Below are positions 1-13,811 of a DNA stretch of 64,000 nucleotides, in pieces. How positions within the stretch are numbered: position 1 is the first letter of the stretch; each line of letters starts with the position of its first letter. This DNA is from Streptomyces kanamyceticus. GTDB taxonomy: Bacteria; Actinomycetota; Actinomycetes; Streptomycetales; Streptomycetaceae. The notes under the pieces are model-generated. The model worked only from the letters and a program-made list of their open reading frames with translations. It was not told the origin of the DNA and made no database searches. The DNA lies in assembly GCF_008704495.1 (NCBI RefSeq), contig NZ_CP023699.1, positions 1,674,001 through 1,738,000 on the forward strand. The letters are read 5' to 3'. The position numbers and the translations under genes were made by a program.

Positions 1-134
1 GCCTTCGCCGCCGTCCGGTTCCACACGGTCGTGGGGTGTCCCGCGCCCAGGAACGCCCCGGCGAGGGCCTGGCCCATGAGGCCGAGGCCGATGACCGTCA
101 CAGGGGTGTGCTCTGCCTGCTGGTTCCGCATCAT
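1..134 (-). CDS. NAD(P)-dependent oxidoreductase, N-terminal fragment
   Basis: The window edge cuts this gene and only about 44 N-terminal residues are visible. Two consecutive ATG codons (134 and 131) open the frame. Residues about 12-24 read VTVIGLGLMGQAL, a Rossmann GxGxxG nucleotide-binding loop, and VWNRT follows at the end of the second strand, where the Arg suggests NADP preference. This is typical of the 6-phosphogluconate-dehydrogenase-like NAD_binding_2 family, which includes 3-hydroxyisobutyrate dehydrogenases and imine reductases. The gene is divergent from a MerR regulator and carries a MerR-type promoter just upstream, so it is probably that regulator's target. The exact substrate cannot be told from the fragment. 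Confidence 0.75.
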   Translation of the reverse strand, partial: MMRNQQAEHTPVTVIGLGLMGQALAGAFLGAGHPTTVWNRTAAK

Positions 135-170
135 GCGCCCTTTCGTAGAGGGGTTGTCGGGCATGGCAGA

Positions 171-202
171 ATCGTCAACCTTCACACCGGTATGAAGGTC
201 AA
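171..202 (-). promoter_or_regulatory. MerR-type promoter/operator between the oxidoreductase and merR
   Basis: An inverted repeat ACCTTCA (178-184) / TGAAGGT (193-199) with an 8-bp spacer lies between the divergent genes. Read on the minus strand, TTGACC (202-197) and GACGAT (176-171) form a -35/-10 pair separated by about 20 bp with the dyad filling the spacer. An over-long spacer holding the operator is the hallmark of MerR-activated promoters. It faces the oxidoreductase gene, about 37 bp from its start. Confidence 0.65.
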
Positions 203-214
203 GGGGGAAGTGGC

Positions 215-574
215 GTGCTGATCGGAGAACTGAGCGGACGGACCGGCGTGCACACGCACCAACTGCGGTACTACGAGGCCCAGGGCCTGCTCACACCCGA
301 CCGCGGCAGCAACGGCTACCGCGACTACGGCGAGGACGCCGTGCTGACCGTGCGGCAGATCAGGAGCCTGCTCGAAGCCGGTCTCTCGACGCAGGAGATC
401 GCGTACATGCTGCCCTGCGCCGTGGGCACAGGACCCGACTTCTACTTCTGCCCCGATCTCCTGGACGTGCTGCGGGGGCGCCTGCGCGGCCTCGACGACA
501 ACATCGACACGCTCACGCGCTCGCGCGACGTGCTCCACGACTTCATCGACGCGACCGAGCGGCGGGCGGCGTAG
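215..574 (+). CDS. MerR family transcriptional regulator
   Basis: A 119-residue protein with the MerR winged helix-turn-helix at residues about 1-70: L-I-G-E-L-S-G-R-T-G-V at the N-terminus, then the LRYYEAQGLL signature and the YRDYGEDAV wing. A C-terminal dimerisation helix follows. The GTG start at 215 is preceded by a purine-rich AGGGGGAAG site. Two cysteines (PCAVG and FYFCPD) lie in the region where MerR proteins bind effector, but no classic metal-binding CxC motif is seen, so the inducer is unknown. The gene is divergent from the NAD(P)-dependent oxidoreductase gene and shares with it a MerR-type operator, so it probably controls that gene and itself. Confidence 0.9.
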   Translation: MLIGELSGRTGVHTHQLRYYEAQGLLTPDRGSNGYRDYGEDAVLTVRQIRSLLEAGLSTQEIAYMLPCAVGTGPDFYFCPDLLDVLRGRLRGLDDNIDTLTRSRDVLHDFIDATERRAA

Positions 575-608
575 CCCCGTACGGCCGAGATCGCGCCCGC
601 GCGGGCGT

Positions 609-641
609 GGCCAGATCCTTGCGGACCATGTCCATCTGGCC
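609..641. promoter_or_regulatory. Nested inverted repeat upstream of quinone reductase
   Basis: GGCCAGAT (609-616) and ATCTGGCC (634-641) form a perfect 8-bp inverted repeat with a 17-bp centre, and the centre itself holds GGAC-CAT-GTCC. It lies 39-71 bp before the quinone reductase start, where an operator would sit. The binding protein is unknown. A transcriptional hairpin after merR is the alternative. Confidence 0.4.
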
Positions 642-679
642 GGTCGTCGCCGTGCGGGCGCCCCGCGCAGGATCGGGGC

Positions 680-1465
680 ATGAAGATTCTCTGGATATCC
701 GCCCACCCCGAACAGCGCTCCCTGAACGGCCGCCTGATGACCGAGGGACTGCGCGTGCTGACCGAGCTCGGGCACGAGCGCCGCGTCAGCGATCTGTACG
801 CCATGGACTGGAAGCCGATCGTGGACGCCGGTGACTTCGGGGGCGCGTCGCGCGAGCGGCTCTTCATCGGGCGCGAGCAGGAACGCGCGTACGGCAGCGG
901 GGAGTTGAGCGAGGACATCCGCGCCGAGCAGGAGAAGCTCGCCTGGGCGGACGTGGTCGTCTTCCAGTTCCCGCTCTGGTGGCTCGGACCGCCCGCGATC
1001 CTCAAGGGCTGGTTCGACCGCGTCCTGGTCCAGGGCTTCGGATTCGGCATCAAGGATCCCGAAGGGCAGGCGCTGCGGTACGGCGACGGGGGCCTGGCAG
1101 GGAAGCGCGCCCTGGTCGTCACGTCCATCGGTGCCCGGGAGTCCAGCTTCGGCCCGCGCGGCATCCACGGACCCCTTGAGGAGGTCCTGTTCCCGCTGCT
1201 GCACGGCACGTTCTGGTACACCGGCATGGCCGCGCTCCCGCCGTTCGCGGTGTACGGCGCCGACCGGCTCACGGCGGCGGGCTTCTCGCGCGCCACGGCG
1301 GACCTGCGCGAACGCCTGCGCACCCTGGACACCACGGAGCCCCTGCCCTTCCGGCACGAGAACGGCGGGGAGTACGACGAGGATCTGACACTGCGGCCGG
1401 ACGTCGCGGCGGGGCTCACGGGCGTCGGAGTGCACCGCGCGCAGGACGGCCGCGCACACCGCTGA
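680..1465 (+). CDS. Flavodoxin-fold NAD(P)H quinone oxidoreductase
   Basis: A 261-residue protein of the NQO1/MdaB flavodoxin-like family, which transfers two electrons from NAD(P)H to quinones through FMN or FAD. The N-terminus MKILWISAHPEQRSLNGRL is the phosphate-binding first strand and loop. VVVFQFPLWWLGPPAILKGW at about residues 91-110 is the signature second flavin loop of this family, followed by FDRVLVQGFGF. Length fits the NQO1-like group (about 240-275). The ATG at 680 follows a GATCGGGGC stretch. It lies codirectional with and about 100 bp after merR, with its own inverted repeat, so it may be separately regulated. It converges on the kinase gene with one base between the two stops. 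Confidence 0.85.
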   Translation: MKILWISAHPEQRSLNGRLMTEGLRVLTELGHERRVSDLYAMDWKPIVDAGDFGGASRERLFIGREQERAYGSGELSEDIRAEQEKLAWADVVVFQFPLWWLGPPAILKGWFDRVLVQGFGFGIKDPEGQALRYGDGGLAGKRALVVTSIGARESSFGPRGIHGPLEEVLFPLLHGTFWYTGMAALPPFAVYGADRLTAAGFSRATADLRERLRTLDTTEPLPFRHENGGEYDEDLTLRPDVAAGLTGVGVHRAQDGRAHR

Positions 1466-1466
1466 G

Positions 1467-2438
1467 TCACGAACCCGGACCGCCCCCGGTGCGAAAGCTC
1501 AGGGTCCGGTAGACCTGCACGCCCCCGCCGCCGCACCCACCGCCCGTCAGTTCCTCGCACGCCTGGGCCGCCGCCGTGACGCGTCGCGTGTACGAGGGGT
1601 CCGTGGCGTCGAGCAGTACGCCCAGTGTCGTACCGCTGTGTCCGACCGCTACGCCCAGGCCGCCGACCTCGCGGCAGATCGCCCGCATCGGCTCCAACGA
1701 GCGCTTGTGCCTGAGGCGTTGGTTCAGCAGGGCGCTGCGGGTCGCGATCCTGCCGACCTCCGCGAGGTCGTGCGTGCGCACCGCGTCGGTGAGCCGTGCG
1801 AGCAGCTCCGCGTAGGCGCGCCGGTCGGCGGGCGTGAACGGCTTGGGGATGCGGTTGAAGTCCACCGTGTCGACCGACCCGCCCTCGTCGATGCCGACCA
1901 CGGCCATGGCGGGCAGCGCGCCGAGGACCGCGCGAAGGCGGACGGCGCGGTGGTGGAAGGCGACGATCGCGGGGTAGAGCACGCCGTCGGTGGGTTCTAT
2001 CCGGGACAGCAGGCGCTCGATCCTGGCGGGCGGCATGGGCACGTCGAGGGCGCGGCCGACCGCCCGCGCGGTGGCGACGAGGTCGGCGGAGGAGCTGGCG
2101 AGCCCCTTGCCCTCAGGGATCACGCTGCTCACCGTGAGCACGCCGCCCCGTGCGGTCCGCGCCCCCGCCGGTGCCGCTTCGGCGATCATCCGGGCGAGGC
2201 GCAGCGCCTTGGCCTTGTGGCGCGGGCGGACCTCGATGTCGCCGGACGCGGAGCCCGGCCGGAAGGTCGCCATGGTCCAGCGGGCGACGGGCAGGGTCAC
2301 GAGGAAGTCCCCGTCCTCCTCGGGCAGTTGGCCCTGGAGCAGTTCGCCGAAGGTGCCGAACGCGGTGCCCACGCCCGTTCGCCCGGGCCCTCGGCCCGAC
2401 GGGCGGGGCCCGGCCGGGGCCTCCTGGTACAGCTTCAC
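1467..2438 (-). CDS. GHMP kinase, L-threonine kinase-like (PduX family)
   Basis: A 323-residue GHMP-superfamily kinase. FGTFGELLQGQ at 27-37 matches the N-terminal motif of PduX-type L-threonine kinases. PEGKGLASSSADL at 108-120 is the ATP-binding glycine/serine loop, and GVAVGHSGTTLGVLLD at 262-277 is motif 3. PduX phosphorylates L-threonine to O-phospho-L-threonine for cobalamin assembly. Here there are no cobalamin genes; the gene is divergent from a PLP synthase and metal-uptake operon and shares with it a Zur-like operator. I infer that it supplies an O-phosphorylated hydroxy-amino acid (phosphothreonine or phosphoserine) to that PLP enzyme. GTG start at 2438 with GGAGG eight bases upstream. 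Confidence 0.85.
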   Translation of the reverse strand: MKLYQEAPAGPRPSGRGPGRTGVGTAFGTFGELLQGQLPEEDGDFLVTLPVARWTMATFRPGSASGDIEVRPRHKAKALRLARMIAEAAPAGARTARGGVLTVSSVIPEGKGLASSSADLVATARAVGRALDVPMPPARIERLLSRIEPTDGVLYPAIVAFHHRAVRLRAVLGALPAMAVVGIDEGGSVDTVDFNRIPKPFTPADRRAYAELLARLTDAVRTHDLAEVGRIATRSALLNQRLRHKRSLEPMRAICREVGGLGVAVGHSGTTLGVLLDATDPSYTRRVTAAAQACEELTGGGCGGGGVQVYRTLSFRTGGGPGS

Positions 2439-2506
2439 GCGATTCCTCCCTCGTACAGCGGCGACGCGCAGATCTCGTACAGCGTTGCGCCGACCTTACA
2501 CGGTCT

Positions 2507-2521
2507 TGACAATCATTTTCA
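2507..2521. promoter_or_regulatory. Zur-like operator in a divergent promoter
   Basis: TGACAATCATTTTCA is a 7-1-7 inverted repeat (TGACAAT / ATTTTCA, six of seven positions paired) and matches the actinobacterial Zur box pattern TGAnAATnATTTTCA. It overlaps a TTGACA (2506-2511) and precedes TAGTGT (2524-2529), so bound repressor would block the rightward promoter. Leftward promoter elements would also overlap it. Zur is the zinc-dependent Fur-family repressor, so the kinase and the rightward operon are predicted to be induced by zinc starvation. Confidence 0.7.
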
Positions 2522-2622
2522 TCTAGTGTGATGCTCTCGGCGTCCCGGGGAGCGGCACACGGAGCCACGCCCTCCCCCAGGCACCTCCTGCCCTCACCAC
2601 GTCCCTCTGGGGGATCTCCGTC

Positions 2623-3615
2623 ATGCACGCGCACATCGCCGAAGCGGTGAAGAAACCCGACCTCATATCCCTCGCGCCGGACCTGGCCTGCCTCCGGTTC
2701 GAGACCATGAAGATCTACTCGGCCCTCGGCGCCGTCCGGCAGCTGCTCGCATCGGGCGCCGTCGAACCGGGCGACACCCTCATCGACAGCTCCAGCGGCA
2801 TCTACGCGCAGGCCCTGGCCCTGGCCTGCCACCGCTACGGAATGAAGTGCCACATCGTGGGCTCCACGACCGTGGACCGCTCCACGCGGGTCCAGCTGGA
2901 GATACTCGGCGCCACCCTCGAACAGGTCCCGCCGTCCCGGAACCTCCGCCTGGACCAGGAACTGAGGGTGCGCAGGATCGCCGAGATCCTGGCCGCCAAC
3001 CCCTCGTACCACTGGATGCGCCAGTACCACGACGACATCCACTACAGCGGCTACCGCGAGGTCGCCGAGGCCATCGGCAAGGACCTGCCCACAGGACCGC
3101 TCGCGCTGGTCGGCGGCGTGGGGTCGGGGGCGTCGACCGGCGCCATCGCCTCGTATCTGCGCGCGGCGGGCCGCGACGTCTCACTCGTCGGCGTGCAGCC
3201 CTTCGGCAGCGTCACCTTCGGCTCCGAGCACGTCGCCGACCCCGACATGATCATCGCCGGGATCGGCAGCGCCATCGAGTTCGAGAACGTCCGGCACGAG
3301 CTGTACGACCGGGTGCACTGGGTCAACTTCGAGTGCGCCGTGTCCGGCGCGGTCGCGCTCCTGCGCACCAGCGGCATCTTCGCCGGGCTCTCGGCGGGCG
3401 CCGCCTACCTCGGCGCGCTGTGGGAGCGGCGCAGGGACGACTCGCGCACCTACGTCTTCATCGCGGCCGACACCGGTCACCGCTACGTCGAGAGCGCCTA
3501 CGCCCGGCACGAACAGGCCCTGGACATCGAGACGTTGAAGCCGCACGAGATCACCTCGCTCGACCAGCTGCGCCACCCCTGGTCCACCGCGCCGTGGCCC
3601 GCCACCACCTCCTGA
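2623..3615 (+). CDS. PLP-dependent cysteine synthase-family enzyme, SbnA-related
   Basis: A 330-residue fold-type II PLP enzyme. K30 in ETMKIYSA is the likely Schiff-base lysine. SSSGIYAQALA (56-66) is the substrate carboxylate loop and GGVGSGASTG (164-173) the glycine-rich PLP-phosphate loop. The closest functional relatives I can name are SbnA and the EDDS (ethylenediamine-disuccinate) enzymes, which replace the phosphate of O-phosphoserine with an amino acid. It is unusual: the normally conserved Asn of the SSGN loop is Ile, and the segment before the lysine is shortened. It is the first gene of the rightward operon behind the Zur-like box, and a kinase that could make its phosphorylated substrate is divergent. 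No SbnB-like dehydrogenase is present, so the condensation product itself may be the ligand. Fold certain, reaction inferred. Confidence 0.8.
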   Translation: MHAHIAEAVKKPDLISLAPDLACLRFETMKIYSALGAVRQLLASGAVEPGDTLIDSSSGIYAQALALACHRYGMKCHIVGSTTVDRSTRVQLEILGATLEQVPPSRNLRLDQELRVRRIAEILAANPSYHWMRQYHDDIHYSGYREVAEAIGKDLPTGPLALVGGVGSGASTGAIASYLRAAGRDVSLVGVQPFGSVTFGSEHVADPDMIIAGIGSAIEFENVRHELYDRVHWVNFECAVSGAVALLRTSGIFAGLSAGAAYLGALWERRRDDSRTYVFIAADTGHRYVESAYARHEQALDIETLKPHEITSLDQLRHPWSTAPWPATTS

Positions 3616-3651
3616 CCCGCCGAACCGCCCGCCCCTCGAGAGAGCACCCAC

Positions 3652-4491
3652 ATGTCACACCCCACACCCCGGACCGTCGCCGAACTCACCGACGCCGTCC
3701 TCGCGGGCGCCCACGGACCCGACCCCAGGGACCTGACGGTCACCAGCGCCTTCTGGCTGTACAACACGACCCGCCTGGCAGGCGGCGACGTCACGTACCA
3801 CAACCACTACTTGCTGCTCCGCGTCGGCGACGCGTTCGGCGCCTGCTCCTTCGAAGCCGGTGAACTCTCCCCGGAGTTCTGCGAGAACGCCTCAGGGCAC
3901 TCCCTGGACAAGCTCCTGCGTCACGAGTGCGCGCCCGTGCGGACCGCCGCGCTCGACGCCTATCTGGCCCGGGCCCGGCCGCACCGCGACACCGACGACG
4001 CCGAGCGCGTGCTCCTGCCCGCCGGTACGCCCGAGGTCAGGGCCGAGGCCCGCGACGCCGCGATCGCCGGTCTGCTCGACATCGCGCCCGGCGCGCGGGT
4101 CGCCCTGATCGGCGTCGTCAACCCGCTGGTGGCCGCGATACGGGAGCGGGGCGGCGTCTGCCTGCCCTGCGACCTGAACCTGCGCACCACCGCGTGGGGC
4201 GAGCCCGTCAGCGACGACATGACCGAGGTGCTCGCGAGCGCCGACGCGGTGGTCGCCACCGGCATGACGCTCAGCAACGGCACCTTCGACCTGATCCTCG
4301 CGCACTGCGTCGAGCACGCGGTGCCGCTGGTCGTCTACGCCCAGAGCGGCAGCGCCGTGGCCCGCGCCTTCCTCGGCGCGGGGGTCACCGGACTCAACGC
4401 GGAGCCGTTCACGTTCTCCCAGTTCAGCGCCGACCCCACACCCATGTACCGGTACCGCGCCGGCCTCGCGTCGAACGGAGCGGGTGCGTGA
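3652..4491 (+). CDS. DUF4213/DUF364 putative heavy-metal chelation protein
   Basis: A 279-residue protein with an enolase-N-like DUF4213 region (about 10-90) and a Rossmann-like DUF364 domain (about 110-270). The stretch ADAVVATGMTLSNGTFDLIL around residue 200 matches the diagnostic (V/I)xTGTTLxNGTxDxIL of DUF364, the Pfam family called putative heavy-metal chelation. The biochemical role of the family is unknown. It lies 36 bp after the PLP enzyme and overlaps the exporter start by four bases (GTGA), so the three are co-translated. In this operon it could complete, load or unload the metal ligand; this is inference. No signal peptide is seen, so it is cytoplasmic. Confidence 0.8.
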   Translation: MSHPTPRTVAELTDAVLAGAHGPDPRDLTVTSAFWLYNTTRLAGGDVTYHNHYLLLRVGDAFGACSFEAGELSPEFCENASGHSLDKLLRHECAPVRTAALDAYLARARPHRDTDDAERVLLPAGTPEVRAEARDAAIAGLLDIAPGARVALIGVVNPLVAAIRERGGVCLPCDLNLRTTAWGEPVSDDMTEVLASADAVVATGMTLSNGTFDLILAHCVEHAVPLVVYAQSGSAVARAFLGAGVTGLNAEPFTFSQFSADPTPMYRYRAGLASNGAGA

Positions 4492-5756
4492 GCGTCGACG
4501 CCGTCAAGAACTCCGCGGCAAACGAAGCCGAGGAGCCGATACCCGGCGATCTGCGCATGGCACGGACACTGTGGCCCGTGCTCCTCGCCTCCGCCGTGGG
4601 CCTGCTGCCGTTCACCGTCTTCAGTACGTATCTGGTGCCCATCGCCGACGAGGCGGGCAGCAGCGTCGCCGCGATGGGCGGACTGCGCGGACTCGGCGGT
4701 CTGGCCGCCCTGTTGGTGGGCACCGCGCTCGCGCCGCTCATCGACCGGGTGCCGAGGCGGTGGGCGGCGGCGGGCGGGCTCGCCGCGCTCGGGCTCTCCG
4801 CGGCGCTCGGCGCGAGCGGCGACTTCGTGCTGCTCGCCGTGTTCTGTCTGCTCGTCGGCGCCAGTACGTCCGTGCTGAACCCGGCGCTCACCGCCGCGGC
4901 CGCCGACCGCTTCGGCACCGGCAGGGCGGCGGGCCGTGCGGCGACCCTGGTGACCGCCACCCAGTCGATGACGGCGATGCTCGCGGCGCCGGTGATCGCG
5001 CTGCCCGCGCTGTTCTGGGGCTGGCGGGGCGACCTGTTCGCGGTGACCGCGCTCTCGCTGCTGCTCGCGGTGGTGTTCGTGGTGCGCCGCGAGGACACCG
5101 AGGACGCGGGTGATGCCGCCTCTGGCGGTCAACGCCTGGGCTACGTCGCCTCGTTCAAGGCCCTGGGCGCCGTGCGCGGCGTCGTGCCGCTGCTGCTCAT
5201 CGCGCTCCTGCGCACCGCCGTGTTCATGGGATACCTGTCGTACCTGGCGGCGTTCTACGAGGAGCGGTTCGACCTGGACGCCGGACTCTTCGCGTTCGTC
5301 TGGACGCTGAGCGGCGCGTCGTTCTTCGTCAGCAACCTCCTCACCGGGCGGCTCACCAACGCGGCCGAGCCGCGCATCCGCACCGAACGGCTGTTGTTCA
5401 TCGGCCTGTTGGCGGCGCTCGTCTCCGTCATGGGCTTCTACTTCACACACTGGCTGCCGCTCGCGCTCGCGCTGACCTCGCTGCACGCGGCGAGCCACGC
5501 CGTCGTCGCGGCCTGCGCGGTCAGCCTCATCGTGCGGCGCTGCGGGCCAGGACTGCGCGGTGCGGCGCTCGGGATCAACGCCGCCGGGATGAGCCTCGGC
5601 GTCTTCGTCGGCGCCGCGCTCGGTGGCGCGGGGCTCGGCATCGCCGGATATCCGGGCGTGGCCGTCGTGTTCGGCGTGCTCGTCGTCGTCGCCGTCGGCG
5701 CCGCGGTGCTCGTCCTGCGCGCACGGCCCGTGCGGGAGGGGGCGGACTCCGTATGA
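4488..5756 (+). CDS. MFS transporter, probable metallophore exporter
   Basis: About 422 residues with some twelve hydrophobic segments starting near residue 25 (LWPVLLASAVGLLPFTVF), of the 12-TM major facilitator type. GTG at 4488 was chosen because it overlaps the previous stop by four bases; the frame is open further upstream but that stretch lies over the DUF364 gene. Siderophore and EDDS clusters usually pair biosynthesis with an MFS exporter and an ABC importer, so export of the apo-ligand is the likely job. It ends in ATGA with the FecCD permease, which indicates translational coupling. Substrate not proved. Confidence 0.85.
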   Translation: MSVDAVKNSAANEAEEPIPGDLRMARTLWPVLLASAVGLLPFTVFSTYLVPIADEAGSSVAAMGGLRGLGGLAALLVGTALAPLIDRVPRRWAAAGGLAALGLSAALGASGDFVLLAVFCLLVGASTSVLNPALTAAAADRFGTGRAAGRAATLVTATQSMTAMLAAPVIALPALFWGWRGDLFAVTALSLLLAVVFVVRREDTEDAGDAASGGQRLGYVASFKALGAVRGVVPLLLIALLRTAVFMGYLSYLAAFYEERFDLDAGLFAFVWTLSGASFFVSNLLTGRLTNAAEPRIRTERLLFIGLLAALVSVMGFYFTHWLPLALALTSLHAASHAVVAACAVSLIVRRCGPGLRGAALGINAAGMSLGVFVGAALGGAGLGIAGYPGVAVVFGVLVVVAVGAAVLVLRARPVREGADSV

Positions 5757-6862
5757 CCGCGACCGCCGAAGCGCCAACGCGCCCCGCCGAAGGGGCGGCG
5801 CCCGCTGGTGTGAGGGGCCGCCTCACCTCCCCCAGGGCGCTGGTCCTGACCTGCGCCGCCCTCTTCCTGGTCCTGCTCGCCTCCGTCGTGGTGGCGATCG
5901 GGCTCGGTGCCGCGGTGGTCACGCCGGGCGACACCGCCCGCTATCTGTGGGCCGCGCTCACCGGCGGCCGCATCGGCGCCGACGAGACGACGACGTACCA
6001 GATCATCTGGCAGATCCGGACGCCGCGCGTGCTCCTCGCCGCCCTTGTCGGGGCCGGTCTGAGCGCGGTCGGCGTGGCCATCCAGGCGATGGTCCGCAAC
6101 GCGCTCGCCGACCCCTTCGTGCTCGGTGTCTCCTCGGGGGCTTCGGTGGGCGCCGTCGGGGTCACCGTCACCGGGGGTCTCGCCGCGCTCGGCGTCTACG
6201 CGGTGTCGGCGGGCGCGTTCATCGGCGCGCTCGTCGCCTCCTTCCTGGTGTATGCCGCCTCGTCGAGCAGGGGCGCACTCTCCCCGCTGCGTCTGGTGCT
6301 CACGGGTGTGGCGATGTCGCTGGGCTTCCAGGCCCTGATGAGCGTGATCATCTACTTCGCGCCGGACAGCGAGGCGACCGGCATGGTCCTGTACTGGACG
6401 ATGGGCGGCTTCGGCGCGGCCAGTTGGGGCGCGCTGCCCGTCGTGTCCGCGGTGGTCCTGCTCGGGCTCGCCGTGCTGTACCGGCACGCCCGCTCCCTGG
6501 ACGTCCTCTCGCTCGGCGACGAGACCGCCGCGAGCCTCGGTGTCAGCCCCGACCGGCAGCGTACGTCGCTGCTCGTCCTGGTGTCGCTGATCACCGGCGT
6601 GATGGTCGCCGTCAGCGGCGCCATCAGCTTCGTGGGGCTCGTCATGCCGCACCTGGTGCGGATGGTGGTCGGCGCCACGCACGCGCGGGTCCTCGCCGTC
6701 GCCCCGCTGGTCGGCGCGGTCTTCATGGTCTGGGTCGATCTGCTTTCCCGGACGGTGGTCGCGCCGCGCGAACTGCCGCTGGGCGTCATCACCGCACTCG
6801 TCGGGGTGCCGGTGTTCATCACGCTCATGCGCCGCAAGGGCCATGTCTTCGGGGGGCGTTGA
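5753..6862 (+). CDS. FecCD-type metal-chelate ABC transporter permease
   Basis: A 369-residue member of the FecCD/BtuC family with about ten membrane segments. RTPRVLLAALVGAGLSAVGV (about 90-109) and NALADPFVLGVSSGASVGAV (about 117-136) are family signatures, and GAISFVGLVMPHLVRMVVG around residue 285 is the typical loop and coupling region. Only one permease gene is present, so a homodimer is expected, as in BtuCD. The ATG overlaps the exporter stop by four bases. An N-terminal tail of about 35 residues precedes the first helix. The operon context indicates import of a metal-ligand complex. Confidence 0.93.
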   Translation: MTATAEAPTRPAEGAAPAGVRGRLTSPRALVLTCAALFLVLLASVVVAIGLGAAVVTPGDTARYLWAALTGGRIGADETTTYQIIWQIRTPRVLLAALVGAGLSAVGVAIQAMVRNALADPFVLGVSSGASVGAVGVTVTGGLAALGVYAVSAGAFIGALVASFLVYAASSSRGALSPLRLVLTGVAMSLGFQALMSVIIYFAPDSEATGMVLYWTMGGFGAASWGALPVVSAVVLLGLAVLYRHARSLDVLSLGDETAASLGVSPDRQRTSLLVLVSLITGVMVAVSGAISFVGLVMPHLVRMVVGATHARVLAVAPLVGAVFMVWVDLLSRTVVAPRELPLGVITALVGVPVFITLMRRKGHVFGGR

Positions 6863-6863
6863 G

Positions 6864-7637
6864 ATGGAACTGCGCATCGAAGGGCTCGGCGTCGACATCG
6901 ACGGCAGGAGCCTGGTGCACGACCTGTCGCTCGACGTGCGCGGCGGCGAGGTGGTGGGCCTCGTAGGACCGAACGGCAGCGGCAAGTCCACCGCGCTGCG
7001 CTGCGTGTACCGCGCGCTGCGCCAGGACCGCGGCACCGTCCGGGTCGGCGCCGACGACATCGGCCGTCTGCCGATGCGCCGCAGCGCGCAGCTCGTCGCC
7101 GCCATGACGCAGGACGGCGCCGTCGACCTGGACTTCACCGTCGAGGAGGTCGTCGCGCTCGGCCGTGCGCCGCACCAGCGGGGCAACCAGGCGCTCGGCG
7201 AGCGTGAACGGGCCCTGTGCGCACGGGCGATGGAGCGGCTCGGCATCCACCACCTGGCGGGGCGCGGCGTCCTCACCCTGTCCGGCGGGGAGCGCCAGCG
7301 CGTGCTGCTCGCCCGCGCCCTCGTCCAGGAGCCGGAGATCCTGGTGCTCGACGAGCCGACCAACCACCTCGACGTACGCCACCAGGTCGAGGTCCTCTCC
7401 CACCTGCGCGGCGCGGGACCCACCGTCCTGGTCGTGCTGCACGACCTGAACCTCGCGGCGGCCGCCTGCGACCGGCTCTGCGTGCTGTCCCAGGGCCGTC
7501 TGGTCGCGTCGGGGACGCCCTCGGAGGTCCTCACCGAGGAGCTGGTGGCCGAGGTGTTCGGCGTCCGCGCCACCGTCGTCCCGCACCCGCTGACGGGCGA
7601 CCCGCAGCTTCTGTACTCACTGCACCACACCCCCTGA
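6864..7637 (+). CDS. ABC transporter ATP-binding protein (metal-chelate uptake)
   Basis: About 257 residues. Walker A GPNGSGKST near residue 38, signature LSGGERQRV near 137 and Walker B ILVLDEPTNHLD near 157 define a FepC/BtuD-type ATPase. ATG 6864 is preferred: it follows the permease stop by one base, has a run of G at 6851-6856 as ribosome site, and gives the family-typical start MELRIEGL. An in-frame ATG at 6843 would overlap the permease end. It energises the FecCD permease. Confidence 0.93.
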   Translation: MELRIEGLGVDIDGRSLVHDLSLDVRGGEVVGLVGPNGSGKSTALRCVYRALRQDRGTVRVGADDIGRLPMRRSAQLVAAMTQDGAVDLDFTVEEVVALGRAPHQRGNQALGERERALCARAMERLGIHHLAGRGVLTLSGGERQRVLLARALVQEPEILVLDEPTNHLDVRHQVEVLSHLRGAGPTVLVVLHDLNLAAAACDRLCVLSQGRLVASGTPSEVLTEELVAEVFGVRATVVPHPLTGDPQLLYSLHHTP

Positions 7638-7652
7638 AAGGCACCAACTCCC

Positions 7653-8651
7653 ATGTCCCACACCCGATCCATCGCCCTGGGATCCGCGCTCGCGGCCGCC
7701 TTGGTCCTGAGCGGCTGCGGCGCCGACGTCGCGTCCGACGCCGACGCCAAGGGCGCGAAGAAGACCACCGTGAAGCGCTGCGGCGAGGACGTCACTTACA
7801 AGGTCCCTCGGCGCGCGGTGGCGTACGAGGGCGGCAGCGCCGACAAACTGTTCAGCCTGGGCCTGACCAAGCACGTGCACGGGTACGTGATGCCGCCCGC
7901 CAACCCGCCCGTGAGCGAGTCCCCTTGGGCGTCCGAGTACGCCAAGGTGAAGATGCTCGGCGACGACCTCCTCAACAAGGAACTCGTCGTCCAGGCCAAG
8001 TCCGACTTCGTCGTCGCGGGCTGGAACTCCGGCTTCAGCGACCAGCGCGGCATCACCCCGAAGATCCTCGACAAGCTCGGCATCCAGAGCTTCATGCACA
8101 CGGAGAGCTGCTTCAACTACCCGGGGTTTCCGCAGAAGGTCACCCCGTTCAACGCGCTCTACAGCGACCTGGAGCGGCTCGGGAAGATCTTCCAGGTCGA
8201 GAAGAAGGCGGACCGGGTCGTCGGCGATCTCAAGAAGCGCGTGGCCGCGGTGGCGGCGAAGGCGCCCAAGGGCGGCAGCCCCGTGCCGGTCTTCCTCTAC
8301 GACTCCGGCACGGACAAGCCGTTCACGGCGGGCAGCCAGGTGCCGCCCAACGACATCATCAAGACGGCTGGCGGCAGGAACATCTTCGACGGACTCGACG
8401 AGCGCTGGACGCAGGTGAGTTGGGAGTCCGTGACCAAGGCCGAGCCCGAGGTCGTCATCATCTTCGACTACGGCGACAAGCCCGCGAAGGAGAAGATCGA
8501 CTTCCTGAAGAACTCCCCGCACACCAAGGAGCTGCCCGCCGTCAAGAAGAACAACTTCTTCGTACTCGACTACAACGAAGGCATCAGCGGGCCGCGGAAC
8601 GTCGACGGTCTGGAGAAGTTCGGGAAGTACCTCGCAGGGCTCAAGGGCTGA
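7653..8651 (+). CDS. Metal-chelate-binding lipoprotein (ABC substrate-binding protein)
   Basis: A 332-residue substrate-binding protein of the FepB/BtuF class. The signal peptide of about 20 residues ends in the lipobox LSGC, so the mature protein is anchored outside the membrane. RRAVAYEGGSADKLFSLGL and the later IIFDYGDKPAKEKIDFLKN follow the two-lobe helical-backbone pattern of siderophore and B12 binders. It is the last gene of the operon, 15 bp after the ATPase. No histidine-rich loop like that of ZnuA is present, so it probably binds a chelate rather than free zinc. Its stop lies one base from the stop of the convergent lactonase gene. Confidence 0.9.
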   Translation: MSHTRSIALGSALAAALVLSGCGADVASDADAKGAKKTTVKRCGEDVTYKVPRRAVAYEGGSADKLFSLGLTKHVHGYVMPPANPPVSESPWASEYAKVKMLGDDLLNKELVVQAKSDFVVAGWNSGFSDQRGITPKILDKLGIQSFMHTESCFNYPGFPQKVTPFNALYSDLERLGKIFQVEKKADRVVGDLKKRVAAVAAKAPKGGSPVPVFLYDSGTDKPFTAGSQVPPNDIIKTAGGRNIFDGLDERWTQVSWESVTKAEPEVVIIFDYGDKPAKEKIDFLKNSPHTKELPAVKKNNFFVLDYNEGISGPRNVDGLEKFGKYLAGLKG

Positions 8652-8652
8652 G

Positions 8653-9507
8653 CTAGCCCGCGAAGGCGACGCCCGGCAGGCCACGGCCCGCGTCCGGCAC
8701 GACCAGGACCGAGCCCGACAAGGGGTGCGGGCGGACGAGCCCGGTGCGGGCCGTGGTGACGTAGAGGTCCCGCAGGTCAGGGCCGCCGAAGGCGCAGGCG
8801 GTGGGGCGGCGCACCGGGAGTTCGACGGTCCGGTCGAGCCGCCCGTCGGGCGTGTAGCGGCGGATCGCCGCGCCGTCCCAGAGCGCCACCCAGACGCATC
8901 CCTCGGCGTCGACGGTGAGCCCGTCGGGGAATCCCGCGCCCGCCTCGATGTGCGCGAACGGCCTTCGGTTCAGGGCATGTTGACCCTCGTAGTCGAAGAC
9001 GTCGATGCGGCGCGTGGGGCTGTCCACGTAGTACATGAGCCGTCCGTCCGGGCTCCAGCCCGTGCCGTTGCTGACGGACACCTCGCCGGACTGTTCGGTG
9101 ACGGTGCCGTCGGGGGCGACGCGGGCGAGGCTGCCGCCGCCCGGAGCCTCGTCGTAGCGCATCGTGCCCGCCCAGAGCGCGCCGTCGGGGGCGACGGCCG
9201 CGTCGTTGCCGCGCCTGCCGGGCACCGGGTCGCGCACCAGCCAGCCGAAGGACGACCCTCCGGGGCCGTACAGGCCGACGCCGTCCCTGAGGTTGACCAC
9301 GAGGCCGCCGCCCGCGCGCGGCTTGGCGGCGCCGACGTGCTGCTCCGTGGCCATGACCGTGCGCCGGCCGCTCGCGGGGGCATACGTGTGGATCCGGGAG
9401 GCGAGGATGTCGACCCAGATGAGGTGTTCGGCGGCGGGGTCCCAGGTGGGGCCTTCGCCGAGTGCGGCCTGCTCGCGCACCGCCACCTCGTACGCGCGGC
9501 CCATCAC
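8653..9507 (-). CDS. SMP-30/gluconolactonase family protein
   Basis: A 284-residue six-bladed beta-propeller of the SMP-30 (regucalcin, sugar lactonase) family. ALGEGPTWDPAAEHLIWVDI near the N-terminus holds the metal-binding Glu, and NDAAVAPDGALWAGTM, SVSNGTGWSPDG and FPDGLTVDAEG supply the other Asn/Asp metal ligands seen in these Ca/Zn-dependent lactonases. It opens a sugar lactone to the acid. The start (GTG 9507 or ATG 9504) overlaps the IclR stop, so both are one transcript. Position opposite a dehydratase and sugar dehydrogenase suggests an oxidative sugar pathway. Confidence 0.88.
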   Translation of the reverse strand: MMGRAYEVAVREQAALGEGPTWDPAAEHLIWVDILASRIHTYAPASGRRTVMATEQHVGAAKPRAGGGLVVNLRDGVGLYGPGGSSFGWLVRDPVPGRRGNDAAVAPDGALWAGTMRYDEAPGGGSLARVAPDGTVTEQSGEVSVSNGTGWSPDGRLMYYVDSPTRRIDVFDYEGQHALNRRPFAHIEAGAGFPDGLTVDAEGCVWVALWDGAAIRRYTPDGRLDRTVELPVRRPTACAFGGPDLRDLYVTTARTGLVRPHPLSGSVLVVPDAGRGLPGVAFAG

Positions 9508-10271
9508 GCGCCCCGGTGGCCGAGGCGGACGGACAGATCAGCGGCGCCCTTGGCGGCGAGCCCGGCCAGTTCGCCCTCGCGCTCCTCGCTCCAGCGGATC
9601 ATCGGTACGGAGATGGAGAGCGCCGCGACGACCCGGCCCGAGCGGTCCCGCACCGGCGCGGCCACACAGCTGACGTCCGGGTTGGACTCCTGGTGCTCGA
9701 CCGCCACACCGCGCTCCCTGATCCCGGCGAGCGCGGCGAGCAGCTCCGTCGGATCGGTGATGCTGGCCGGGGTCATCGCGGTGAACTCCCGACCCCGGAG
9801 GCGGGATTCGAGCTGGTCCTCGGGCAGCGAGGCGAGCAGCATCTTGCCGACGGACGTGCAGTGCGCGGGCAGCCTGCGGCCCGCCGCGGAGACCATGCGC
9901 ACGGCGTGCGTGGAGTCGACCTTGGCGATGTAGATGACGTCGGTGTCCTCCAGGATGGCGACGTGGACGGTCTCGTCGCAGGTCTCTGCGACCTCGCGGG
10001 CCACCTGCTGCCCCTCGGCCGCGAGGTCGAGCTGCTCCGCGTACCTGCTGCCGAGCTGGTAGGTGCGCACGCCCAGGCGGTAGCGGCCCGGCTGGTCGGG
10101 GAGCTGGACGAGATACGAGCGGGCGGCCAGGGTGGTGAGCAACTCGTGCACCGTGGTGCGCGGCAGCTGGAGCTTGCGGGTGACCTCGGGTGCGGAGAGC
10201 GTGCCCTCGCCCTCAAGGAACAGTTCGAGTATGTCCAGCGACCTGGTCACCGCGGGCACCAGTCGTCCCAT
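9504..10271 (-). CDS. IclR family transcriptional regulator
   Basis: About 255 residues: an N-terminal winged HTH (AVTRSLDILELFLEGEGTLSAPEVTRKLQLPRTTVHELL, written here in two motifs: SLDILELF and RKLQLPRTTVHELL) and a C-terminal GAF-like effector domain containing GKMLLASLPEDQLE and CVAAPVRDRSGRVVAALSIS. ATG 10271 is preferred because GGGAGAGG precedes it; an in-frame GTG at 10289 is possible. It is divergent from the dehydratase gene and upstream of the lactonase gene, and probably represses both until the sugar acid or lactone appears. Confidence 0.92.
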   Translation of the reverse strand: MGRLVPAVTRSLDILELFLEGEGTLSAPEVTRKLQLPRTTVHELLTTLAARSYLVQLPDQPGRYRLGVRTYQLGSRYAEQLDLAAEGQQVAREVAETCDETVHVAILEDTDVIYIAKVDSTHAVRMVSAAGRRLPAHCTSVGKMLLASLPEDQLESRLRGREFTAMTPASITDPTELLAALAGIRERGVAVEHQESNPDVSCVAAPVRDRSGRVVAALSISVPMIRWSEEREGELAGLAAKGAADLSVRLGHRGA

Positions 10272-10298
10272 GAGTTCGGCCTCTCCCACCCTGCGCGT

Positions 10299-10310
10299 CC
10301 GACATGTCGG
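10299..10310. promoter_or_regulatory. Perfect 12-bp palindrome before IclR gene
   Basis: CCGACATGTCGG is a perfect 12-bp palindrome 28 bp upstream of the IclR start. It is a candidate autoregulatory operator. No protein is known to me for this site. Confidence 0.3.
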
Positions 10311-10413
10311 CCACTGATCGGTATGACGAACACAGGGTAGGCACGCGGCAGTTCACGGCGCAATGGCCGCCGACGGTCATCGATGGCTCCTTCTGGACGT
10401 TCCGCGCGACCCA

Positions 10414-10473
10414 TTGACACCTTCCGGCCGCCGTGAATACCGTCACGCCACCATTTCGAACGTGTGACGAAAT
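10414..10473 (+). promoter_or_regulatory. Promoter and candidate IclR operator of the dehydratase operon
   Basis: TTGACA (10414-10419) and TACCGT (10438-10443) are separated by 18 bp, a good vegetative promoter. Just downstream ATTTCG (10453-10458) and CGAAAT (10468-10473) form a perfect 6-bp inverted repeat with 9 bp between, placed to block initiation. The adjacent IclR-family gene is the natural candidate to bind it. Confidence 0.5.
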
Positions 10474-10499
10474 ACCGAACAAGTCAAGGGGCAACTGCC

Positions 10500-11705
10500 T
10501 TGCGCATTACGGGAATCAGCACGCACGTGGTCGGCACGCCCTGGCGCAATCTCACCTACGTCCAGGTGCACACCGACGAGGGCCTGACCGGCATCGGCGA
10601 GACCCGCATGCTCGGCCGCACCGACGCGCTCATCGGGTATCTCCGCGAGGCGGAGGCCAACCACATCGCCGGGTCCGATCCGTTCGCGATCGAGGACCTG
10701 GTGCGCAGGATGAAGTACGGCGACTACGGCAGGGCGGGCGAGATCGTCATGTCGGGCATCGCCGTCGTCGAGATGGCCTGCTGGGACATCAAGGGCAAGG
10801 CGCTCGGCGTGCCCGTCTGGCAGCTGCTCGGCGGCAAGGTCACCGACCGCGTGAAGGCGTACGCGAACGGCTGGTACACCACGGAGCGCACCCCGGAGGC
10901 GTACCACGAGGCCGCCCGCGGGGTCATGGAGCGCGGCTACCGGGCGCTGAAGATCGACCCCTTCGGGACGGGCCACTTCGAGCTCGACCACGAACAGACC
11001 CGGTACGCCGTGTCGTTGATCGAGGCGGTGCGCGACGCGATCGGGCCCGACGCCGAGCTGATGCTGGAGATGCACGGCAGGTTCTCGCCCGCCACGGCGA
11101 TCCGGCTCGCCCGCGACCTCGCGCCGTTCCGGCCCGCGTGGCTGGAGGAACCGGTGCCGCCGGAGAACCTCAAGGCCCTGGCGAAGGTCGCGGCGCGGGT
11201 GGACATGCCGGTGGCGACGGGCGAGCGGATCCACGACCGGATCGAGTTCCGCGAGCTGTTCGAGAGCCAGGCGGCCGACGTCCTGCAGCCCGACGTGGGC
11301 CACATCGGCGGCATCTGGGAGACCCGGAAGCTCGCGGCCACCGCCGAGACGCACTACATGCTGGTCGCCCCGCACAACGTCGGCGGCCCGGTGCTCACCG
11401 CCGCATCGCTCCAAGTCGGCTTCACCACGCCGAACTTCAAGATCCTGGAGCACTTCAACGACTTCGCGGACGCCGACATCAAGAAGGTCGTCAAGGGCGC
11501 CCCGCGGGTCGACCCGGCGACGGGCTGCTTCGAGCTGTCGCACGCGCCCGGCCTCGGCGTCGAGCTCGACGTCGACGCGGCGGCGGAGTTCCCGCAGCAG
11601 CAGGCGCGGTTCGACCTGTGGGCCGAGGGCTGGGAGAAGCGTTCACCAAGCGCGGCGGCGGGCGGGGCGGCGGGCGGCGCCCCGGGCCCGGGGAGTGCGG
11701 AGTGA
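10500..11705 (+). CDS. Mandelate racemase/enolase-superfamily sugar acid dehydratase
   Basis: About 401 residues from the TTG at 10500, which has AAGGGG upstream; a longer frame from GTG 10464 would add 12 residues and overlap the candidate operator. Enolase-superfamily N-terminal domain, then a TIM barrel. ALKIDPFG supplies the second-strand Lys; LMLEMHGRF, WLEEP and ATGERI carry the three metal-binding acids, with the HG after the first as in D-galactonate dehydratase-like members; VAPHNVGGP carries the acid/base His. It probably dehydrates an aldonic acid to a 2-keto-3-deoxy acid. It overlaps the next gene by four bases. Exact sugar unknown. Confidence 0.88.
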   Translation: MRITGISTHVVGTPWRNLTYVQVHTDEGLTGIGETRMLGRTDALIGYLREAEANHIAGSDPFAIEDLVRRMKYGDYGRAGEIVMSGIAVVEMACWDIKGKALGVPVWQLLGGKVTDRVKAYANGWYTTERTPEAYHEAARGVMERGYRALKIDPFGTGHFELDHEQTRYAVSLIEAVRDAIGPDAELMLEMHGRFSPATAIRLARDLAPFRPAWLEEPVPPENLKALAKVAARVDMPVATGERIHDRIEFRELFESQAADVLQPDVGHIGGIWETRKLAATAETHYMLVAPHNVGGPVLTAASLQVGFTTPNFKILEHFNDFADADIKKVVKGAPRVDPATGCFELSHAPGLGVELDVDAAAEFPQQQARFDLWAEGWEKRSPSAAAGGAAGGAPGPGSAE

Positions 11706-12715
11706 GCAGCCGCGCGATCGTCGTCGAGCGGCCCGGCGCACACCGCCTGGTCACCCGGGGCACCCCCACCCCCGGCCCCGGCGAGGTCCTCGTCCGCGTG
11801 GCCGCCGCGGGCATCTGCGGGAGCGACCGCGAGGTGTACGACGGACACCGCGACGCCGCGTACGTGCGCTACCCCGTGATCCCCGGCCACGAGTGGTCGG
11901 GGACCGTCGCTGCGGTCGGCGAGGGCGTCGACCCCGGGCTGCTCGGGCGCAGGACCGTCGCCGAGGGGTTCCGGGCGTGCGGTGTCTGCGAGCGGTGCCG
12001 GTGCGCGGAGACGAACCTGTGCACCGGCGGGTACGCGGAGACCGGGTTCACCGAGCCCGGCGCCTTCGCCGACCATCTGACCGTGCCCGCACGGCTGTTG
12101 CACCTCCTGCGCGACGACGCCGACCTGCGGGCCGCGGCGCTCCTGGAACCGGCCGCGGTGGTCGCGGCGGCGGTGCGGGCGGGCGGCCTCCGGCCGGGTG
12201 AGCGCGTCGCGGTGGTCGGGGCGGGGACGCTCGGGCTGCTCGCGGTGCAGTTGCTCGCGGCTTCCGGCCCCGGTGAGCTGGTGGTGGTCGATCCGCGCGG
12301 GGCGCGGGGTGCGCGGGCCCGGGAGTGCGGGGCGACCTCGGCGCTCTCCCCCGTCGCGGCCGAATCCGTACGCGGTTCGTTCGACCTCGTCGTGGAGACC
12401 GCGGGGGCGCCGACCACCGCCGCCTCGTCGTGTCTGCTCGCCCGGCGCGGCGGGCGGGTCGTGCTCACCGGGATGTTCACGGAGGGGGCCGTGGGGATCG
12501 ACCCCGTGCATCTCTCCCTCAGTCAGCTGGAGGTGCGGTCCGTCTTCGGGGCGTCGTCCGCGGCGTGGGGCGATGCGGTGCGGGCGTTCGGGCTCGGGCT
12601 GATCGACCCCGCGGCGCTGATCACGCACGAGTTTCCTCTGGAGCGGTTCGGAGAGGCGGTTTCTCTCGTCGGTGGGGGTGACCCCAAGACCGGGAAGGTG
12701 CTTTTGCGTCCTTGA
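11702..12715 (+). CDS. Zn-dependent alcohol/polyol dehydrogenase (MDR family)
   Basis: About 337 residues. Catalytic-zinc Cys in AGICGSDREV, GHEWSG with the His ligand, and structural-zinc cysteines in RACGVCERCRCAETNLC. The Rossmann loop is VVGAGTLGLLAVQ near residue 170. It resembles sorbitol or L-threonine dehydrogenase-like MDR enzymes. GTG at 11702 overlaps the dehydratase stop (GTGA), so the two are coupled. In this operon it probably oxidises the imported sugar or a sugar alcohol, feeding the lactonase and dehydratase; inference from context. Confidence 0.88.
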   Translation: MSSRAIVVERPGAHRLVTRGTPTPGPGEVLVRVAAAGICGSDREVYDGHRDAAYVRYPVIPGHEWSGTVAAVGEGVDPGLLGRRTVAEGFRACGVCERCRCAETNLCTGGYAETGFTEPGAFADHLTVPARLLHLLRDDADLRAAALLEPAAVVAAAVRAGGLRPGERVAVVGAGTLGLLAVQLLAASGPGELVVVDPRGARGARARECGATSALSPVAAESVRGSFDLVVETAGAPTTAASSCLLARRGGRVVLTGMFTEGAVGIDPVHLSLSQLEVRSVFGASSAAWGDAVRAFGLGLIDPAALITHEFPLERFGEAVSLVGGGDPKTGKVLLRP

Positions 12716-12757
12716 GCTTTGGCTGCGGGCCGGTTGTGGCTGAGCGCGCAGTTCCCC

Positions 12758-12775
12758 GCGCCCCTTACGGGGCGC
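12758..12775. repeat. Streptomyces intergenic hairpin repeat
   Basis: GCGCCCC-TTAC-GGGGCGC, a perfect 7-bp stem with 4-base loop, inside the sequence gcgcagttccccgcgcccct (20 bases) that recurs between genes of many Streptomyces genomes. It sits 43 bp after the dehydrogenase stop and may attenuate transcription into the next gene. Confidence 0.65.
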
Positions 12776-12832
12776 CACCCCATGCCCTGTAAGTCGAACC
12801 TCGTTCGGCATTTCGGACACGAAGGACCGTCT

Positions 12833-13807
12833 GTGATCGACACTTCTTCCGTACGTCCCCGTCGCCCCGGCGAACCCGCCCTCGCCCTCGTCGGGCTCGG
12901 CGCGCCCCGCCCCGACCCCGGCGACGCCTCGCCCCACGCCTTCCCCGACGGTGGCACCTGGCGCACCGAGATCCCCTCGGTGGAGGGGCCCGAGGCGCTC
13001 GCCGTCGTGCTCAAGGAGAGTGCGCGCCTCGACGTGCCCGTGCACCGGGTCAGCCAGGGCAGCGGCGTCTGGATGCTCACCGACGCCGAGATCACCGAGA
13101 TGACGGAGTCCTGCGCCGAGCGGGACATCGAGCTCTGTCTGTTCACCGGGCCGCGCGGCACCTGGGACATCGGGGGCTCCACGCGCACCGAATCCGGCGG
13201 TGCCGGGCTCCGCGCCCGGGGCCACGACGCGCTCGCGGGGTGCGTCGAAGACGCTCTGCGCGCGGCCGAGTTGGGCGTGCGGTGCCTGCTCGTCGCCGAT
13301 GAGGGCGTGCTGTGGACCCTGCACCGGCTGCGCGCCGTGGGCGCGCTGCCCGCCGACACCACGTTCAAGCTGTCCGCCCTGTCGGGGCCGGTCAATCCCG
13401 CCTCGTACGCGGTGTACGAGCGGCTCGGCGCCGACTCCCTGAACGTGCCGTCCGACCTGACGGCGGACCACCTCACCGAGATCCGCCGGGTCAGCCGAGC
13501 CCCCATGGACCTGTACGTCGAGGCGCCCGACGACCTCGGCGGCTACATCCGGATGTACGAGGTCGCCGAGCTGATCAGGCGCGGCGCCCCGCTGTACGTG
13601 AAGTTCGGCCTCAGCAAGTCGCCCGGCATCTATCCCTACGGTGCCCAGCTGCGCGAGCACACCCTCGCCACCGCCCGCGAGCGCGTGCGCCGCGGCCGCC
13701 TCGTCCTCGATCTGCTCGCCCGGCACGGCGCGGACGGCGGCATGTCGCCGCTCGGCTCGCGGCTCCCCGGCGAGCTGCGCCGATTCCCCACCCCGGAAGG
13801 GGACTGA
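12833..13807 (+). CDS. U32-peptidase-like TIM-barrel protein of unknown function
   Basis: About 324 residues from GTG 12833, with GAAGGA seven bases upstream; the upstream in-frame codons run through a repeat and are not used. The fold looks like a TIM barrel: LCLFTGPRGTWDIGG, GVRCLLVADEGVLWTL, FKLSALSGPVNPASYAVYE and LGADSLNVPSDLTAD are strand-loop units as seen in U32-family proteins, but I do not see the cysteines typical of U32 peptidases or hydroxylases. It lies between the dehydratase/dehydrogenase pair and the sugar ABC genes, so a catabolic role such as lyase or epimerase in the same pathway is possible. I do not recognise its function. Confidence 0.6.
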   Translation: MIDTSSVRPRRPGEPALALVGLGAPRPDPGDASPHAFPDGGTWRTEIPSVEGPEALAVVLKESARLDVPVHRVSQGSGVWMLTDAEITEMTESCAERDIELCLFTGPRGTWDIGGSTRTESGGAGLRARGHDALAGCVEDALRAAELGVRCLLVADEGVLWTLHRLRAVGALPADTTFKLSALSGPVNPASYAVYERLGADSLNVPSDLTADHLTEIRRVSRAPMDLYVEAPDDLGGYIRMYEVAELIRRGAPLYVKFGLSKSPGIYPYGAQLREHTLATARERVRRGRLVLDLLARHGADGGMSPLGSRLPGELRRFPTPEGD

Positions 13808-13811
13808 ACCC

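Follow-up and report, generated by a model that had tools for sequence, protein, structure and literature searches.

A candidate zincophore locus in Streptomyces kanamyceticus

Seven genes at positions 1467-8651 of a 64-kb stretch of the S. kanamyceticus genome (the window; the genome is a single contig of 10.13 Mb) probably form a system that makes, exports and recovers a metallophore, more precisely a zincophore, under repression by the zinc regulator Zur. We put the probability of this reading at about 0.72. A kinase of the GHMP family is divergent from six genes encoding a pyridoxal phosphate (PLP)-dependent enzyme, a DUF364 protein, a major facilitator superfamily (MFS) protein and the permease, ATPase and binding lipoprotein of an ATP-binding cassette (ABC) importer. 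An earlier reading made without database searches (the sequence-only reading) had taken the genes for a compact locus whose metallophore is exported and then re-imported by an ABC transporter, and had placed it under zinc control through Zur. The sequence supports both proposals; the palindrome that provides the best support for zinc control had gone unmentioned.

A Zur box in the window and in the host genome

The palindrome, TGACAATCATTTTCA, is located at 2507-2521, within the promoter region in the 184 intergenic bp that separate the kinase gene from the divergently read PLP gene. It fits all defined positions of the 15-bp Zur motif tGaNNatSatNNtCa, reported from ChIP-chip (chromatin immunoprecipitation with microarrays) in S. 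coelicolor (PMC5472717), and is the sole match in the window; dinucleotide shuffles of the window gave no match in 100 trials. The TGACA of the box overlaps a -35-like TTGACA hexamer (2506-2511), which gATGCT follows at a distance of 18 nt (2530-2535). We compared by eye 21 box-anchored stretches, consisting of the window and 20 of the 29 related loci with an exact motif (see below). Most of them have ATGCT 17-18 nt after TTGACA, a recurrence which suggests that the -35 element of the PLP operon is covered by the box. A strict sigma-70 scan nevertheless found no promoter.

The znuA site serves as an internal positive control. When as many as two mismatches to TGAMAATSATTTTCA are tolerated, the whole genome has sites at seven places, against one match for the reversed pattern, and the window and znuA sites are the only ones in the 10.1 Mb with at most one mismatch. 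The second-best site, with one mismatch, lies at the start of znuA, accompanied by another, weaker box at a distance of 22 bp. For this operon Pfam confirms the products ZnuA, an ABC-3 permease and a Fur-family (zur) regulator; the ATPase between the znu operon genes is known from a 35% tblastn match alone. At four other places, with two mismatches, no evident zinc gene was found among the open reading frames (ORFs) listed there.

Zur boxes in related loci

The window's site was followed through a sample of 199 Streptomyces genomes, separate from the set of related loci described below. Exact copies occur 32 times, and the reversed pattern not once. Thirteen of the copies (the window's own among them), spread over 12 genomes, are no more than 10 kb from a match to the window's PLP enzyme. 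The expected share of such surroundings in the DNA is about 0.085% (71 PLP places, genomes of 8.4 Mb assumed), and the enrichment corresponds to a naive binomial p of about 4e-32, uncorrected for kinship.

Related loci were collected by scanning named genomes with a profile of the DUF364 alignment, and the best 80 of 315 were kept, picked independently of their neighbours or boxes. The published Zur motif is exact at 35 sites in 29 of the 80 loci and is absent from ten shuffled sets. With up to two mismatches allowed, a Zur-like box is present in 54 loci (none in three shuffled sets), and 26 have no box. Zur boxes track with DUF364 and not with the PLP enzyme as such, because they were found in none of 22 loci that encode a related PLP enzyme (46-65% identity) without DUF364, versus five of 12 distant DUF364 loci.

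We rejected iron control, since the DmdR/IdeR-type iron-box consensus, with up to four mismatches, was found in none of the 80 DUF364 loci; the 12 distant DUF364 loci were likewise without a match. The iron scan took in 13 of the 22 DUF364-free loci (the Zur scan all 22), and two of these 13 have an iron box near a gene that by eye resembles one for a siderophore-interacting protein, an observation of doubtful relevance.

A Fur-family gene is present within 12 kb in 11 of the 80 loci, and five of their products, when aligned, share 41-47% identity with the znu-linked Zur. Zur paralogues were seen beside or near the cluster in L043 (10815-11249), L107 (6335-6955), L137, L143 and L145; a paralogue so linked could be a cluster-specific zinc sensor.

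Recurrence and organization of the gene set

The co-occurrence search supports by comparison the zincophore-type logic of the sequence-only reading, in that PLP, MFS and importer genes recur beside DUF364. The PLP gene is near DUF364 in 77 of the 80 loci, and in the other three (L108, L111, L159) DUF364 lies less than 1 kb from the contig end on the relevant side. An MFS gene is near in 76 loci and an importer in 69, of FecCD type in 59 and of Opp type in 10; at the thresholds used, 11 loci have neither type. Accessory genes encode a GHMP kinase (51 loci), an MTS-like methyltransferase (40, with the MTS match of the query itself under the Pfam cut-off) and a PhyH oxygenase (12).

In the 199 Streptomyces genomes, the PLP gene is at most 2.5 kb away from 33 of 34 close DUF364 matches (a total that excludes another fragment of the DUF364 gene in G119:C57), and in the exception, G081, the two genes are on different contigs. 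The PLP gene occurs in 66 of these genomes and is adjacent to a close DUF364 gene in 32 (33 loci), about a sixth of the sample. Related loci are also present in Amycolatopsis (L151, L170, L172, L173). L193, on plasmid 26 of Tsukamurella tyrosinosolvens (5176-11858), is a compact cluster of FecCD, ATPase, substrate-binding protein (SBP), DUF364, MFS, kinase and PLP genes, with the GHMP kinase annotated as hypothetical. This plasmid copy suggests horizontal spread of the cluster.

In the window, the content, order and strands of the genes agree with the sequence-only reading: all seven reading frames are intact, and each product scores above a Pfam cut-off. The kinase gene (1467-2438) is on the minus strand, and its product matches GHMP_N (41.8 bits) and GHMP_C (28.4 bits), both above cut-off. 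The six other genes, on the plus strand, encode the PLP-dependent beta-substitution enzyme (2623-3615; PALP; SbnA/cysteine-synthase fold), the DUF364 (PF04016) protein (3652-4491; 43.3 bits, cut-off 23), the MFS protein and putative ligand exporter (4488-5756; MFS_1), the FecCD-type permease (5753-6862; FecCD), the importer ATPase (6843-7637; ABC_tran) and the binding lipoprotein (7653-8651; Peripla_BP_2). The permease is a candidate for re-import, with a putative metal complex as its cargo. The lipoprotein, in which a LSGC lipobox can be read, would be the receptor for a metal-ligand complex; in NCBIfam it comes closest to a putative F420-0 SBP family, below that family's cut-off.

Four-base overlaps had been described between several of the genes. 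They exist at exactly two junctions, DUF364/MFS (4488-4491) and MFS/FecCD (5753-5756); the PLP and DUF364 genes are separated by 36 bp and the ATPase and SBP genes by 15 bp. At the FecCD/ATPase junction there is a 20-bp overlap or, with an in-frame ATG at 6864 as an equally possible start of the ATPase, a 1-bp gap. The seven-gene order is conserved, at 74-91% identity, in five further loci with all seven genes (L037, L038, L040-L042), which is far beyond chance.

Convergent genes bound the locus, with a flavodoxin-like oxidoreductase (680-1465, plus strand) on the kinase side and an SMP-30 lactonase (8653-9507, minus strand) on the lipoprotein side. From the lactonase to 16483, the window contains an IclR-type regulator, an enolase-superfamily dehydratase, an alcohol dehydrogenase and a sugar ABC transporter. 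Judged from translations, with a domain scan of the lactonase only, this part resembles an apparently unrelated sugar-acid catabolic locus.

The PLP enzyme

The sequence-only reading had linked the PLP synthase to SbnA-type enzymes. We rejected membership of the SbnA family, since the enzyme scores 134 bits against the SbnA model TIGR03945 (cut-off 349.95) and belongs to a separate clade with a support of 100/100. Its top Foldseek match is SbnA (5d84). The enzyme is shortened by a deletion before the catalytic lysine K30, and SGIY replaces SGN. K30, R115, Q134 and Y135 are invariant in a 26-row alignment of PLP enzymes. Arg132, Tyr152 and Ser185 are reported to determine the selectivity of SbnA for O-phosphoserine (PMC12414870); in an alignment made through six Streptomyces SbnA-family proteins, and not S. 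aureus SbnA, the first two match the invariant R115 and Y135, and the position of Ser185 is probably taken by Gly167. We propose that the PLP enzyme builds the backbone of the ligand.

SbnA-family members above the cut-off are encoded elsewhere in 24 of 41 Streptomyces genomes, and the window's genome is not among the matches listed. The nearest SbnA relative in that genome, L187 (G000:C1:1382888-1383829), lies about 290 kb away and scores 322.6 bits, just below the cut-off. As the sequence-only reading had stated, an SbnB-like dehydrogenase is absent from the ten window proteins scanned (215-9507; a search that did not extend to the remaining genome), and these ten proteins do not include a lyase either.

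Among the 22 DUF364-free PLP loci (L044, L051-L054, L059-L063, L065, L067, L068, L072-L079, L096), those inspected contain genes for an ATP-grasp amino-acid ligase, a methyltransferase and an MFS protein (by Pfam in L051, L060, L063 and L074), and some have a kinase or FecCD gene. They may form a sister family that makes metallophores or peptides for a different metal.

DUF364 and a two-enzyme core

The DUF364 protein scores above the Pfam gathering threshold and has the two-domain fold. The sequence-only reading had listed the gene correctly and had given it no role, although DUF364 and the PLP enzyme form a near-invariant pair; we propose that DUF364 is the second biosynthetic enzyme of the ligand. 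In 2010, a structural study connected DUF364 with metal chelation from genome context and, as presented there, left both condensation and hydrolysis open (PMC2954201). Beyond this context proposal, we found no metallophore cluster of this kind with DUF364 in the literature available to us, with few subscription papers. The DUF364/PF04016 structures Dhaf4260 (3l5o) and PH1506 (3npg) are 13-19% identical to the window protein, which differs in its tie to a PLP enzyme and a Zur box.

The sequence-only reading had expected a simple condensation product. This is plausible for the putative ligand, because there are loci with just two visible enzymes. Two enzymes may suffice, because no enzyme besides the PLP enzyme and DUF364 is visible in L164 and L166, which have a Zur box, or in L153, which has a weaker one. 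ORFs were called there by a simple GC-frame rule with filters, by which a gene could have been missed. The neighbours are an alpha/beta hydrolase (L164, about 3 kb downstream), a FhuF_C-domain protein and a DUF2637 protein (L166, about 1.5-2.5 kb upstream) and a DUF4429 protein (L153); two ORFs near these loci have no domain match.

We see an even chance that these loci represent a zincophore pathway class not described before, with a two-enzyme core formed by the shortened SbnA-like PLP enzyme and DUF364. In such a class DUF364 would represent a novel type of metallophore biosynthetic enzyme, and related loci would add a methyltransferase, a PhyH oxygenase, a kinase or an ATP-grasp ligase.

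More distant DUF364 loci (about 40-47% identity) include L080-L089, L192 on an S. angustmyceticus plasmid and L196 on a Rhodococcus plasmid. Those with annotation contain genes for ATP-grasp, DUF364, cysteine-synthase-like, dipeptide epimerase, MFS and methyltransferase proteins and an Opp-type ABC transporter. In L086 and L192 the ATP-grasp gene is preceded by a Zur-like box at a distance of about 110-120 bp.

The GHMP kinase

The kinase finds no match in its genome except itself at E 0.01. Its GE-LQG and PxGxGxxSSxxD residues are kept in at least 95% of 37 aligned kinases, and its NCBIfam matches, to shikimate and homoserine kinase, are all sub-threshold. The substrate is probably the hydroxyl of an amino acid (Ser or Thr). 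The unusual kinase-fed first step of the sequence-only reading is not general: blastp and a profile built from the family found no GHMP gene in the locus DNA of 29 of the 80 loci. Five of these (L108, L111, L113, L121, L126) are near a contig end and 24 have ample flanks. We therefore rejected the kinase as an obligatory first step in general, with the proviso that a kinase may be encoded elsewhere in those 24 genomes. It may rather be an accessory supplier of phospho-amino acid.

Proposed mechanism and alternative explanations

We hypothesize that in zinc-replete cells Zn-Zur would occupy the box at 2507-2521, the only one present, and shut both the PLP operon, whose -35 element it would cover, and the nearby kinase gene. 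Upon zinc shortage, the kinase would phosphorylate a serine- or threonine-type amino acid, from which the PLP enzyme would eliminate phosphate to give an aminoacrylate; addition of the amine of a second amino acid would yield an amino-polycarboxylate backbone. DUF364 would then catalyse an essential next step, perhaps a condensation, cyclisation or decarboxylation. The MFS protein would export the ligand, and the lipoprotein and the FecCD/ATPase importer would take the metal complex, presumably of the same compound, back into the cell. The ligand is probably an aminopolycarboxylate, which SbnA-type chemistry would naturally yield when the releasing dehydrogenase is missing. Aspergillomarasmine, made by a cysteine-synthase-like enzyme, is a fungal precedent.

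One observation weighs slightly against this zincophore reading. FhuF-like proteins act on iron siderophores, and the FhuF_C protein near L166 is a small point against zinc at that locus.

The strongest alternative, which we consider unlikely, is that the cluster makes a known aminopolycarboxylate, such as ethylenediamine disuccinate (EDDS), ethylenediaminesuccinic acid hydroxyarginine (EDHA) or a close analogue, by the pathway of Amycolatopsis japonicum or S. scabiei. EDDS is described as a Zur-regulated actinomycete zincophore made by a route without nonribosomal peptide synthetase (NRPS; PMC4993170, PMC6103462), EDHA comes from an 11-kb S. scabiei cluster reported to be overlooked by antiSMASH (PMC8914351), and Amycolatopsis carries related loci. 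However, many related loci add a methyltransferase or a PhyH enzyme, neither of which is found in the window. The structure of EDDS needs neither enzyme. Two annotated distant DUF364 loci, considered as EDHA clusters, have no obvious arginine hydroxylase.

An uptake-and-processing system, in which a foreign metal complex is imported, dismantled by the PLP enzyme and DUF364 and its remains expelled by the MFS protein, is less probable still. Importer and enzymes share a single operon, and the 2010 structural study treated hydrolysis as no less open than condensation (PMC2954201), but the enzymes stay constant while the importer varies between FecCD and Opp types, and the kinase and SbnA-like fold suit synthesis.

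SbnA-type enzymes also feed antibiotics, and some DUF364-free PLP loci combine an ATP-grasp ligase with the lack of a Zur box. We nevertheless regard a zinc-controlled diamino-acid antimetabolite or signal as quite improbable, in view of the binding lipoprotein and ABC importer within the operon, the FecCD or Opp import genes nearby in most related loci, and Zur control, which fits metal supply.

Cobalamin metabolism, which the sequence-only reading had named as a refuting outcome and which would make the kinase a PduX-type L-threonine kinase and the importer one for corrinoids, was rejected as scarcely credible: GHMP kinases include PduX, the window kinase has the GHMP domains and the importer proteins show sub-threshold similarity to BtuC/D/F models, but positions 1-14000 contain no Rfam match at gathering level, hence no riboswitch, the SBP scores 43.5 bits for BtuF versus 154 for another SBP family, a Zur box is present instead, the PLP gene is found in only a third of the Streptomyces sample, and we know of no role of PLP, DUF364 or MFS proteins of this kind in corrinoid synthesis.

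If the zincophore reading is correct, a concrete, testable role would emerge for DUF364, a widespread family whose structures are solved and whose function is unproven. The zincophore family would then extend to about a sixth of the sampled Streptomyces, to Amycolatopsis and relatives and to plasmids, and the Zur-box loci with two visible enzymes point to a small, chemically approachable ligand.

Comparison with known systems

SbnA and O-acetylserine sulfhydrylase (OASS)/CysM are, like the window enzyme, fold-type II PLP enzymes; the window enzyme differs in its deletion, in SGIY and in the lack of an SbnB partner in the cluster.

Staphylopine is made by few biosynthetic genes and exported by an MFS protein. 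The opine-type zincophores, staphylopine (CntKLM) and pseudopaline, share FecCD/Opp import with the window family, but assembly in the window would depend on the PLP enzyme and DUF364 instead. The CntM-type domain Staph_opine_DH (PF10100) is absent from the cluster proteins and has no match in the genome, a scan in which the control genomes were also silent. FecCD and Opp importers are described as interchanging among opine-type clusters (PMC7438024), and pseudopaline is reported to be under Zur control (PMC6103462).

Zur-controlled zincophores are already known from actinomycetes, namely EDDS in Amycolatopsis and coelibactin (PMC6103462, PMC4993170), and antiSMASH 7 includes an aminopolycarboxylate class (PMC10320115). 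Coelibactin is the putative NRPS product of S. coelicolor (PMC3430247); its cluster is likewise that of a Zur-controlled actinomycete zincophore, but the window cluster has no NRPS. The EDDS system, actinomycete, non-NRPS and Zur-controlled, is similar to the window locus; a possible difference from EDDS and EDHA is that the wider family of the window locus has methyltransferase and PhyH variants. The locus would thus be a further variant among the known Zur-controlled zincophores.

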